Source: Frateuria edaphi (GTDB taxonomy: Bacteria; Pseudomonadota; Gammaproteobacteria; Xanthomonadales; Rhodanobacteraceae). Taken from it: a DNA stretch of 64,000 bases. The translations under genes and the position numbers were made by a program. This document shows, in pieces, positions 6,376 to 47,844 of this stretch (positions within the stretch are counted from its first letter, which is position 1; every line of letters starts with the position of its first letter). The stretch covers positions 1,426,001 through 1,490,000 of the forward strand of contig NZ_CP088251.1 of the NCBI RefSeq assembly GCF_021117405.1, written 5' to 3'. Under the pieces are notes generated by a model. That model searched no databases. It worked only from the letters and a program-made list of their open reading frames with translations, and was not told the origin of the DNA.

Positions 6376-6508
6376 GCCCGACTACTGCGCCGGCTGGGAG
6401 CCGATCCTGGTCAGCAAGAAGGACGTGCTGACCGATGGCACGTCGAAGCAAATCCTCGCGCACAACAACCACGGCGAAGCCACTGGCTGCTGGGGCAAGA
6501 AACCATGA
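6263..6508 (+). CDS. Outer-membrane lipoprotein spanin subunit (Rz1-like)
   Basis: 81 residues in the +1 frame relative to the Rz-like gene. The signal sequence ends in a lipobox, LLPASC, giving a mature lipoprotein that starts CATTG. The ATG at 6263 gives a 30-residue signal; an ATG at 6320 would give a short one. The mature part is longer than many Rz1 proteins and has two further cysteines. Start choice is uncertain, but the lipobox and nested position make the assignment firm. Confidence 0.7.
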   Translation: MTPTPTSSSFPTRLLSAWGMLTLLLLPASCATTGRVTRPDYCAGWEPILVSKKDVLTDGTSKQILAHNNHGEATGCWGKKP

Positions 6509-6693
6509 ACCCGATTCCCGGCCTGGAACGCGAGCGCGACCAGGCGCGCCGCCTCGTGCGCGGCAAGACCTTCGACCAGGCGCCCGAAGTCTTCAAGGAC
6601 ATCGAGAGCGCCAAGGCACGCATCCGCTACGCCAAGCGCATCTACCGCAAGGAGAAGCAGCATGCCGCCACGCAAGAACGCCACCGCGCCTGA
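6505..6693 (+). CDS. Small charged phage protein, unknown
   Basis: 62 residues, very rich in Arg, Lys and Glu, predicted helical throughout. Its ATG overlaps the spanin stop by 4 bases. No family recognised; small genes between lysis and terminase modules are common. Confidence 0.5.
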   Translation: MNPIPGLERERDQARRLVRGKTFDQAPEVFKDIESAKARIRYAKRIYRKEKQHAATQERHRA

Positions 6694-32458: not shown

Positions 32459-32813
<355 letters not shown>

Positions 32814-44792: not shown

Positions 44793-45587
44793 ATGACCCG
44801 ACCGCTACGCCTCGCCATCAACGGCGCCAACGGCCGTATGGGACGGGCGTTGCTTGATCTGTTGCGTGACGACGCACGATTCGAGATCGCCGCGGCACTC
44901 ATCGCACCGGGCATGCCGCAAGTGGGCGAGCGTGCCTGGCATGACCGCGCCACGCCCTGTTTCCGCGCGGACTGGCCACCGGAAGCGCTCGACGCGGTGA
45001 TCGACTTCAGCGGCCCGGGCGGGCTCGCCTCCGCGCTCGACTACTGCACCGGCCACGGGGTGGCGCTGGTCAGCGGCACCACCGGCATCGATGCCGCGCT
45101 GAAGGCCCGGCTGGCGAACGCGTCCTCGCAGATACCGCTGATGCACGCGAGCAACTTCAGCCTCGGCGTGGCGGTACTCACGCGTCTCCTTCGCCAGGCC
45201 GCCTCCGCACTGCCGGAGTGGGACCTGGAGATCGTCGAGGCACACCACAAGCGCAAGACGGACGCGCCCTCGGGCACCGCGATCTCGCTTGGAGAGGCGG
45301 CCGCCGCGGCGCGCGGTACCACGCTCGCGCGAGATGGCGTCACCGGCTCGCGCGAGGGGGCGCGGCGCGCCGGCAGCATCGGCTTCGCTGTGGTGCGTGG
45401 TGGCGACATCGTGGGGGAGCACACGGCGATGCTGATCGGCGCCGGTGAGCGTGTCGAACTGGGCCACCGTGCCACCGATCGCAGCATCTTCGCCCGCGGT
45501 GCGATCGAGGCGGCGCACTGGCTGCATGCCCAACCGCCGGCCGCCTACGATCTCCAGGCGATGCTGGCCGCGCGACTCGATGCGTAG
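44793..45587 (+). CDS. dapB: 4-hydroxy-tetrahydrodipicolinate reductase
   Basis: 264 residues: NAD(P)H-binding INGANGRMGRAL, SGTTGIDA, catalytic EIVEAHHKRKTDAPSGTA, and C-terminal GERVELGHRATDRSIFARGAIEAAHWL. It makes tetrahydrodipicolinate in lysine and peptidoglycan synthesis. Located after dnaJ as in Xanthomonadales. Confidence 0.96.
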   Translation: MTRPLRLAINGANGRMGRALLDLLRDDARFEIAAALIAPGMPQVGERAWHDRATPCFRADWPPEALDAVIDFSGPGGLASALDYCTGHGVALVSGTTGIDAALKARLANASSQIPLMHASNFSLGVAVLTRLLRQAASALPEWDLEIVEAHHKRKTDAPSGTAISLGEAAAAARGTTLARDGVTGSREGARRAGSIGFAVVRGGDIVGEHTAMLIGAGERVELGHRATDRSIFARGAIEAAHWLHAQPPAAYDLQAMLAARLDA

Positions 45588-45689
45588 GTGGCAGGCCGGG
45601 CCCGACCTGTCGCCGTGTATACGACTGTGTCCATCGGCCGGATGCCCACACGGGACGGGCGATGCTTGTCGCGTTCGCACCTTGCCCGT

Positions 45690-45860
45690 TACCATGGTCT
45701 TTATTGTCATTGGGGAGTAGCCATCCTCACCCGCGAAGGCCGTCCGCCTTCGTTCCCCGAGGAACCCGCGTCAACAGACTTGGAGCCAACGCTCCATGGC
45801 GTGGGTGGCAGCGCTGCCGTACACCGGCCAGGCGCGTGCCCGGCGAGACCTTTGGCCACG
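45690..45860 (+). promoter_or_regulatory. yybP-ykoY manganese riboswitch with its promoter
   Basis: Conserved blocks of the family in order: TTGGGGAGTAGCC (from 45710), GCGTCAACA (ending 45776) and GGCGAGACCTTTGG (45842-45855), with a GC-rich variable hairpin between the first two. The same landmarks occur in the E. coli mntP leader. A possible promoter is TTGTCG (45666-45671) with TACCAT (45690-45695). It lies in the 349-base leader of the exchanger gene and should raise expression when Mn2+ is high. Confidence 0.9.
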
Positions 45861-45936
45861 ATGTGCTCGAACCCTTGCCGGGCGGGCCGCATCGTCGTGC
45901 CATTGGTTTTCCGCTCGCCCGGCCGGATTCGCGTTG

Positions 45937-46935
45937 ATGCTCACTGCCTTGTGGTTCCTGCTTTCCGCCGGGGCGATCTATGCCGCCTGCGAGTACTTCG
46001 TCAACGGTATCGAATGGCTGGGCCGTAAGTTCAGGCTGGATGCCACCGCCACCGGGACCGTGCTTGCCGCCTTCGGCACCGCGCTGCCCGAGAGCGCGGT
46101 CACCTTCATCGCCGTGGTGTTCGGGCACACCCCCGAGCAGCGCGGCATCGGCGTCGGTGCGGCCCTGGGTGGACCGCTGGTGCTGGGCACCATCGCCTAT
46201 GCGGTGGTTGGCATCGCCCTGTGGAGCAACCGGCACCGGTTGCGACGCCCCGACGCGGTGGTGAAGGTCGACCACGCGCGGCTTGCACGCGACCAGCGGT
46301 GGTTCCTTTCGATCTTCGTGGTCAAGTGCACGCTGGGTCTGGTCGCGTTCGCATTGAAGCCCTGGCTGGGCGTGTTGTTCATCGGTGCCTACGGCTTGTA
46401 CGTATGGCGCGAGCTGAAAACCGGCGACATGGCGGCGGACGAGGAGGAACTCGAACCGCTGAAATTCCAGCCGCACGCCGACGACCCGGCGATGTGGCGG
46501 GTGGTCGCCCAGAGTGGACTTGCGCTGGTGGTGATCGCCATCGCCTCGCGCATATTCGTCACGCAGATCGAGGTGATCGGTCTGGCCTTTGGCTTGTCGG
46601 CGCACGTGGTGGCGCTGGTCCTGAGCCCGGTCGCGACCGAACTGCCCGAAACCGTCAACGCGCTGATCTGGGTCCGCCAGGGCAAGGAGCGGCTGGCGTT
46701 GGCGAACATTTCCGGGGCCATGATGATCCAGGCGACGATTCCAAGTTCGCTGGCCCTGTTCTTCACGCCATGGCTGTTCGACCTGCCACTGATCGTGGCC
46801 GGGGCGCTGACCACGGTGGCGGTGGGTTACCTGTGGTGGCTGTTCCAGCGCGGGCACGTCAACGCGCGCTGGCTGATGCCGGTGGGCCTGCTATACGGAG
46901 TGTTCGCCGCGTTCGTGGCCTGGCACCTGGCCTGA
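45937..46935 (+). CDS. CaxA-type cation exchanger, probable Mn2+ exporter
   Basis: 332 residues, about ten membrane segments, with the two inverted alpha repeats of the Ca2+/cation antiporter family: GTALPESAVTF near residue 47 and ATELPETVNALIW in the second half, and an acidic central loop (DMAADEEELEPL). Annotation by family would be sodium/calcium exchanger; the Mn2+ riboswitch in its leader points instead to manganese efflux. No strong ribosome site precedes the ATG, in line with RNA-level control. Confidence 0.8.
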   Translation: MLTALWFLLSAGAIYAACEYFVNGIEWLGRKFRLDATATGTVLAAFGTALPESAVTFIAVVFGHTPEQRGIGVGAALGGPLVLGTIAYAVVGIALWSNRHRLRRPDAVVKVDHARLARDQRWFLSIFVVKCTLGLVAFALKPWLGVLFIGAYGLYVWRELKTGDMAADEEELEPLKFQPHADDPAMWRVVAQSGLALVVIAIASRIFVTQIEVIGLAFGLSAHVVALVLSPVATELPETVNALIWVRQGKERLALANISGAMMIQATIPSSLALFFTPWLFDLPLIVAGALTTVAVGYLWWLFQRGHVNARWLMPVGLLYGVFAAFVAWHLA

Positions 46936-46938
46936 CGA

Positions 46939-47634
46939 TCAGTCCCGGTGCGCGGCGTTGCGGGCGCGTCGCGCGCCGAAGCGGCGATCCAGCGCGCCGA
47001 CCAGTTTCTTGAATCCACGCGAGAACTTGCCGCGCCGTGTCTTGCGCAGCTTTTCTTCCTCGCTGGTCAGCCAGGCGACCTGGATGACCCGGCGCTCGCC
47101 CTCGAAGGGGAGGTGGCCGTGAAAAGAATTGTCGCAACGCTTGAATACGGCGAACTCACCGTACAGGGGCGTCAATTCCGGCGCAACCAGATCGTCGATG
47201 TCGTCGATGCGGCGAAGGAAGCGCAGGCAGCCCTCGCTAGTGTCCGGCCACTGGTGGTTCAGATAGAGCAGGGCGGTGGCGACCTTCGACTTGCTGTCGG
47301 TATGGATGGTGCCGTGGCGCTTGTTGAGGTGGCGGCACAGCGTCACCAGCGTGGGGTATTGGGCCAGGTCCGCGATGCCCAGCCGTTCGCCGATCACGCT
47401 GGCGAAAGCCGGTGCGGTCAGGTCGGCCACCAGCGCGTTGATCGACGGGCCGCAATCGACCGGATCGTATGGAAAGAAGCCCGCGCTGGTGTAGCGCGGG
47501 AAATCGCGTTCCAGATCGTTGCGGGCATCGTCCGGCAACTGGCCGTGGGCGATCAGGAACGGGAACGGGTCCTGCCGCACGTCGGTGTCGGGACGATCGA
47601 GGCGGGCGGGATCGAGCAGGACGGTGGCTTTCAT
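46939..47634 (-). CDS. 2-oxoglutarate/Fe(II) oxygenase family protein
   Basis: 231 residues with the facial triad: His-x-Asp in TIHTDSKSK and the distal His in NSFHGHLPFEGERRVIQV, with the Arg that binds 2-oxoglutarate. Substrate unknown; it resembles prolyl-hydroxylase-like proteins. The C-terminus is very basic. Convergent with the exchanger gene, 3 bases apart. Confidence 0.8.
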   Translation of the reverse strand: MKATVLLDPARLDRPDTDVRQDPFPFLIAHGQLPDDARNDLERDFPRYTSAGFFPYDPVDCGPSINALVADLTAPAFASVIGERLGIADLAQYPTLVTLCRHLNKRHGTIHTDSKSKVATALLYLNHQWPDTSEGCLRFLRRIDDIDDLVAPELTPLYGEFAVFKRCDNSFHGHLPFEGERRVIQVAWLTSEEEKLRKTRRGKFSRGFKKLVGALDRRFGARRARNAAHRD

Positions 47635-47844
47635 GGACTGCTTCGTGGACCGGATAACAGCCAGTTTAGCGCGCGTCGACCACGCACAGAGGCCCGGTTG
47701 GATGCCTCGTTCACGCACCGCGCGGTGGACAGAATCGCCCCTCGCACCTATCATTGCGTCCCGCCCGAGACTTCTTCCGACCCAAGGTCCACAAGCCTGC
47801 TTGCAGCGGCTTGCGGACTTTGCTGCACCTAAAGGCGGCCCCCA

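Follow-up and report, generated by a model that had tools for sequence, protein, structure and literature searches.

The gene that directly follows a yybP-ykoY riboswitch in the 64-kb stretch of DNA analysed here (the window) encodes a transporter of the CaCA superfamily which, judged from its sequence and genomic setting, is most probably the riboswitch-controlled Mn2+ exporter of this genome. Export of Mn2+ rather than Ca2+ had been suggested in the initial annotation of this DNA; its facts are confirmed, and its reading of the function is very probably correct. The proposal is supported by the linkage of exchanger and riboswitch in related loci, by the substitution of MntP or UPF0016 for the exchanger in relatives, by an altered ion pocket in which the divalent-ion pair is kept, and by the precedent of BP3410 from Bordetella pertussis.

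Table 1. Leader elements and exchanger gene in the window
Feature	Positions	Strand	Basis or remark
Likely promoter: -35-like TTGTCG, 18 nt spacer, -10-like TACCAT	45666-45671 and 45690-45695	+	by eye
Mn2+ riboswitch aptamer, yybP-ykoY, RF00080	45700-45818	+	cmscan, 63.6 bits (cut-off 45)
First landmark block, GGGGAGTAG	45712-45720		
Second landmark block, GTCAACA	45770-45776		
Third landmark block, GGCGAGACC	45842-45850		3' of the end of the Rfam match
Conserved 3' block, GGCGAGACCUUUGGC	45842-45856	+	outside the Rfam match
Helix D	45853-45856 with 45899-45902 and 45859-45864 with 45889-45894	+	expression platform, predicted
Helix B:C	45877-45887 with 45913-45923	+	expression platform, predicted; ends 13 nt 5' of the ATG
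CaCA-superfamily transporter, 332 aa, proposed Mn2+ exporter	45937-46935	+	PF01699, 102.6 bits

The riboswitch and the gene behind it

When the 64-kb window was scanned with Rfam 15 (cmscan), RF00080 was matched over model positions 1-177 with an E-value of 2.3e-14, and the only other match above the gathering level was a tmRNA gene (32459-32813, minus strand, 191.9 bits). This is the single RF00080 copy listed in the whole genome (3.77 Mb, one contig). The leader had initially been assigned to the yybP-ykoY class from three landmark blocks, with an Infernal search against the Rfam model proposed as the check; all three blocks were located in the window and the search found the family above its cut-off (Table 1). 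The description of the class as an established Mn2+ sensor holds in that the riboswitch belongs to a Mn2+ class. It has to be widened, as Ca2+ is reported to be a further ligand of a Streptococcus aptamer of this class, which reportedly regulates Ca2+ efflux through a Mn2+/Ca2+ ATPase, so that the class would bind more than Mn2+ alone (PMC9495176).

The coding sequence is taken to start at the ATG at 45937 because most orthologue matches begin at that residue and because this ATG is aligned in 55 of 55 leaders, the latter partly by construction as the ends of the aligned stretches were set by the analyst. For these reasons a longer ORF from 45796 was rejected as the gene start. The upstream neighbour, which we take to be dapB, ends at 45587. 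Downstream, a minus-strand ORF from 46939 is read by eye as the next gene, and a plus-strand ORF (46948-47832) is also present in the mechanical ORF list; the riboswitch gene is probably a single-gene unit.

The Pfam profile PF01699 (Na_Ca_ex, cut-off 24.9 bits) matches the protein in two separate stretches, so that the two alpha repeats are real. An AlphaFold2 model built from 49 sequences (pLDDT 89.3, pTM 0.86) is predicted to have the CaCA fold: with Foldseek, the TM-scores by query for the best chain were 0.75 for CAX (4kpp), 0.75 for VCX1 (4k1c) and 0.70 for YfkE (4kjs), and 0.61-0.64 by query and 0.68-0.70 by target for the NCX_Mj entries. The repeats together with the predicted fold place the protein in the CaCA superfamily. 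By sequence, the nearest solved protein is NCX_Mj, with an E-value of about 8e-6. The label 'CaxA/NCX-type' given initially is too narrow, since the serines of NCX are absent (see below) and the NCBI calcium/sodium antiporter model TIGR00367 scores 75.9 bits, below its cut-off of 179.65. A match to NapE, below its own cut-off, was set aside, a membrane helix being taken to resemble that family by chance. Among orthologue contigs with a name, the nearest are four from Frateuria (98, 93, 91 and 89% identical; L031-L034), and a Pfam profile search of the own genome found no second PF01699 protein.

Linkage of the exchanger gene to the riboswitch

The best 80 of 319 relatives, i.e. the closest loci, were scanned with all Rfam families. 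RF00080 was found above the cut-off just upstream of the exchanger in 20/20, 20/20, 19/20 and 18/20 of them, that is in 77 of the 80 closest loci, and the three misses (L083, L099 and L107) showed no RF00080 even at E 0.1. A Chromobacterium locus (L102) contains, 3.5 kb away from its exchanger and Mn riboswitch, an M-box Mg2+ riboswitch as well (6424-6591, 143.9 bits). When 61 genomes (our own and 60 relatives) were compared, 24 exchanger places at an identity of at least 57% were present in 23 genomes, and 23 of the 24 had an RF00080 match over the cut-off directly upstream; the exception, in G021 (L125), had none, also at E 0.1. One genome of the same genus, G005, carries two exchangers (C1:320201-321431 and C8:149198-150379; 93% and 59% identical to that of the window), both of them preceded by a separate Mn riboswitch, and an extra MntP for which no riboswitch is listed nearby.

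Further from the window, a phylum-wide sample of 398 genomes contains at least 12 adjacent riboswitch-exchanger pairs (listings compared by eye, the riboswitch listing being based on stricter filters). Nine places in this sample, among the matches listed, have an identity of at least 56%, and six of these are riboswitch-adjacent, four above the RF00080 cut-off (G000, G002, G433 and G226) and two below it (G210, 40 bits; G217, 34.1 bits); at the remaining three (L149, L150 and L152, in G202, G219 and G148) no RF00080 was seen at E 0.1. Pairs also occur at 30-32% identity, in G203, G304, G379, G121 and G117 (RF00080 at 22.7 bits in the last), and at 28% in G199. In the family of G304, 200 genomes were searched and 30 loci taken. 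Of the 20 loci scanned with the RF00080 cut-off, 15 were riboswitch-positive (10 of the 11 close orthologues and 5 of the 9 distant ones), as were five of five further distant loci (L206 and L210-L213), while L214-L218 lay outside the Rfam scan.

From a plasmid collection, nine of 15 matches were examined (H1, H3, H4, H8, H9, H10, H12, H13 and H14). RF00080 exceeded its cut-off in five of the nine loci (L135, 101 bits; L136, 76.7; L142, 66.6; L139, 64.9; L137, 51.5), L138 had a match of 23.4 bits, and L140, L141 and L143 had no match at E 0.1. On the Massilia putida plasmid NZ_CP019036.1 (L135), typed as mobilizable, riboswitch and exchanger are flanked by two IS5 transposase genes and lie near dmeF; another M. 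putida plasmid among the matches listed also bears an exchanger gene.

Replacement by MntP and UPF0016

In the 61 genomes, 46 RF00080 rows precede an exchanger (23), UPF0016 (16, from Pfam places and motif), MntP (5, from Pfam places, in G001, G009, G037, G048 and G057) or ORFs that by motif look presumably TerC-like (2, both rows weak at 30.6 and 22.4 bits). Mn exporters of other families had initially been named among the known targets of yybP-ykoY riboswitches. For UPF0016 genes the association is usual, with 328 of 333 strains reported (PMC7380456).

The bacterial family to which our genome belongs was represented by 37 genomes, our own included. Above the cut-off, the exchanger is present in 23, UPF0016 in 13 and MntP in four of them, with one further UPF0016 (G026) and one further MntP (G019) under the cut-off. 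All 37 genomes have at least one of the three kinds over the cut-off and only three have two kinds, exchanger and MntP in G005 and G023 and exchanger and UPF0016 in G035. The mutual replacement gives a Fisher p of 1e-7, which is not to be taken literally as the genomes are related. Within this bacterial family, the three transporters take each other's place downstream of the riboswitch, and they do so once within the genus, where G001 has MntP behind the riboswitch and no exchanger. In our own genome, Pfam finds no match to MntP (PF02659) or UPF0016 (PF01169); it finds four CDF places, one TerC above and one below the cut-off, and one Nramp.

Ion pocket and residue signature

Twelve residues coordinate the ions in NCX_Mj (PMC4753433, PMC8366772). 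These ligands, ATSESNATSESD in NCX_Mj, correspond to ATAEGLPTEEAQ in the window protein (A T A E G L P T E E A Q against A T S E S N A T S E S D). Seven of the twelve differ, all four serines among them (S51A, S77G, N81L, A206P, S210E, S236A and D240Q), and N237, which is not one of the twelve, is replaced by methionine; A47, T50, E54, T209 and E213 are kept. Ca2+ is bound in the ground state of NCX_Mj by E54, E213, T50 and T209 (PMC4753433). In the numbering of the window protein the pocket residues include E52, E235, E238, M262 and Q265. With A, G, E and A at the positions of S51, S77, S210 and S236, the protein does not group with NCX proper, and the GTSLPE motif found in both NCX repeats is replaced by GTALPE and ATELPE.

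At 13 positions the clade of the window protein reads AEA(G/A)PLPAEE(A/S)(M/L)Q and the eight canonical exchangers examined read SENSNN(A/G)GSESNN. This signature is present, with small variation, in 155 of 164 aligned rows (window protein and NCX_Mj included), and the nine rows without it are NCX_Mj and the eight canonical homologues, a control set hand-picked from weak matches. As the bearers were mostly gathered for their likeness to the window protein, the proportion of 155 in 163 should not be read as a natural frequency. L152, whose ORF is incomplete, was excluded from the signature table and the tree. In a FastTree tree built from 67 sequences, all 58 rows with the signature fall into a single clade (support 0.994). 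It divides into a G77 clade with the window protein (0.79) and an A77 clade (0.75), to which L140 and L141 from haloarchaea belong. The 12-ligand pattern, with position 77 being G or A, is common to all 30 homologues examined from the family of G304.

In NCX_Mj itself, alanine at S210, S236, T50 or N81 has no appreciable effect, and mutants at S51, S77, T209 and D240 retain 10-25% of kcat/Km (PMC4753433). NCLX, in which nine of the twelve ligands are different, still exchanges Na+ or Li+ for Ca2+ (PMC8366772). In view of these mild mutants and of NCLX, the altered pocket separates the clade and is by itself no proof that Na+ or Ca2+ transport has been lost; likewise, the missing serines argue against NCX membership and, given the NCLX case, not against every Ca2+ function.

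Leader and expression platform

A TANNAT element is found 19-24 nt upstream of GGGGAGTAG at 69 of 76 places, against 0.28 expected from its rate in the loci, these leaders being related and the places hence not independent; a strict sigma-70 scan found no promoter. Leaders were aligned from the window and 54 of the 77 riboswitch-positive loci (55 in total), and the core GCGAGACCTTTGGC of the 3' block is identical in all 55. GAGACC occurs upstream in 77 of the 80 loci and is missing from the same three that have no riboswitch.

Two predicted helices follow. In the 55 leaders, helix D is paired in 96.4% of cells (0 of 500 shuffles equally high) and five of its pairs, all in the inner part, are changed on both sides (a number reached in 6 of 500 shuffles); its further pair types do not exceed those of the shuffles (189 of 500) and its outer four pairs are invariant. 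Helix B:C is paired in 98.8% of cells and also has five pairs changed on both sides, and its values were reached by none of 500 shuffles on four measures and by 10 of 500 on pair types. The two helices cross within 45853-45923 and could be either alternatives or parts of one H-type pseudoknot of 10 bp and 11 bp just 5' of the start codon, with joining stretches that would be 12, 1 and 10 nt long in the window. No mention of a pseudoknot before the start codon was found in the accessible parts of the riboswitch literature consulted.

Three other structures were considered and dropped: an aptamer-closing helix GGUCU/AGACC, seen in the window alone, as its 5' half varies among 14 relatives; helix D as an intrinsic terminator, as the scan finds none and the following stretch has no steady U-run; and a GGCGAG/CUCGCC helix from RNAalifold, which has one-sided changes only, while B:C has both-sided ones. 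That B:C ends so close to the ATG and no U-run follows it speaks for translational control or a Rho-type effect rather than for a simple intrinsic terminator. For B. pertussis, a halt of RNA polymerase within the riboswitch when Mn is absent has been reported (PMC8546581). The direction of the switch assumed here, with Mn turning expression on, is borrowed from the riboswitch class.

Proposed function

We propose that a rise in cytosolic Mn2+ would lead to binding of Mn2+ by the yybP-ykoY aptamer, whereupon the 3' part of the leader would refold and the downstream gene would be expressed. Its product would be an inner-membrane antiporter of the CaCA fold that carries Mn2+ out of the cell, a riboswitch-controlled Mn efflux step that would fill the place taken by MntP or UPF0016 (MneA/Mnx) in relatives. 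Transport would probably proceed via the alpha-repeat glutamates E52 and E238, the counterparts of the divalent-ion holders in NCX_Mj, together with the third carboxylate E235 and the methionine M262, neither of which occurs in the canonical exchangers that were examined. H+ may serve as the counter-ion, proton coupling being the weakest step of the proposal.

Several observations count against Mn2+ export. Four CDF places and TerC are present in the same genome, and the mild NCX_Mj mutants, NCLX and the Ca2+-binding Streptococcus riboswitch have been described above. In addition, 21 loci bearing the signature (L153-L173) show no adjacent riboswitch among the matches listed, under stricter filters, and an exchanger with canonical residues (L179, 409-1743, in G199) follows, at a distance of 205 nt, a sub-cut-off RF00080 match (37.9 bits), which marks either a second riboswitch-linked exchanger type or a chance match. 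From L179 it follows that the riboswitch does not imply the signature, and from both sets that the two are associated and not equivalent.

The most serious alternative, which we nevertheless consider unlikely, is a Ca2+ or mixed Ca2+/Mn2+ exchanger induced under Mn stress, for which the riboswitch would tell when it is made and not what it carries. The superfamily is known for Ca2+ transport (PMC8366772), the Foldseek matches of the predicted model are Ca2+ exchangers, and both the Streptococcus riboswitch with its Mn2+/Ca2+ ATPase (PMC9495176) and L179 would fit this reading. It agrees less well with MntP or UPF0016 filling the same slot in relatives, with a pocket that has gained a carboxylate and a methionine, and with BP3410, which lowers cell Mn without being induced by Ca and for which Ca transport is not among the results reported in the accessible text (PMC8546581). 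That another divalent metal (Co2+, Ni2+, Fe2+ or Cd2+) is moved, with the Mn riboswitch as a general metal-stress cue, is very improbable, as the exchangers that lie near dmeF, annotated for Co/Ni efflux, in M. putida (L135) and Azospirillum (L136) keep strong RF00080 matches of their own and the close set is tied to the Mn riboswitch in nearly all loci.

Beyond Mn2+ export by this one protein, the signature bearers, from Bacteria and haloarchaea, might form a CaCA subfamily of their own whose task is Mn2+/H+ export, with the NCX serines lost and S210E and N237M added, a tentative extension to which we give slightly less than an even chance. Within such a subfamily, a methionine by the divalent site would perhaps confer selectivity against Ca2+, by analogy with the methionine of Nramp transporters. 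If this is true, the 13-residue signature would allow database entries to be sorted into Mn exporters and true Ca2+ exchangers.

That a riboswitch-linked CaCA protein exports Mn is not a new idea, as it was demonstrated for BP3410 in 2021 (PMC8546581). We found neither another bacterial CaCA Mn exporter nor the signature or the three-way swap in the accessible literature, which is weak evidence as subscription papers are poorly covered; searches with the motif letters returned only unrelated words among the matches listed. It is the residue signature and the three-way swap that merit further work. Among the homologues, L135, L136 and L141 are annotated as 'sodium:calcium antiporter', L140 as 'sodium/hydrogen exchanger' and L143 as 'membrane protein'; for riboswitch-linked homologues the first of these names is probably wrong. 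The signature makes this question of naming testable, with E235 and M262 set against the canonical Ser and Asn for Mn/Ca selectivity. As the exchanger mostly replaces both MntP and UPF0016 in the family, surveys of Mn homeostasis that seek only these two would miss the proposed exporter.

Comparison with known systems

The closest precedent is BP3410 of B. pertussis, a CaCA protein annotated as a calcium:cation antiporter whose gene lies behind a yybP-ykoY riboswitch and is induced by Mn (Capek et al. 2021, PMC8546581) and, on data the authors do not show, not by Ca. The Mn content of cells is about 5-fold lower when their copy is functional (PMC8546581). BP3410 and the window gene have in common a CaCA protein directly behind a Mn riboswitch and NCX_Mj as the nearest solved structure, BP3410 being from another bacterial family and likened here by its published description. 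In almost 98% of the strains with a full sequence, the BP3410 gene is reported to be inactivated by a duplication (PMC8546581), whereas the window ORF is uninterrupted; this tandem duplication is also absent from the 30 loci of the family of G304. With NCX_Mj, an archaeal Na+/Ca2+ exchanger, the window protein shares the fold and differs at seven of the twelve ligands and at N237. The H+/Ca2+ exchangers of the CAX type (4kpp, VCX1 4k1c and YfkE 4kjs) have the same fold, with 17, 19 and 15% identity in the Foldseek alignments. The Mn exporters MntP and UPF0016/MneA/Mnx share riboswitch and slot in relatives and belong to other Pfam families than the exchanger. Finally, the canonical bacterial CaCA exchangers, which we take to be YrbG-like, have the fold family in common with the window protein and differ from it at the 13 signature positions in the eight examined.
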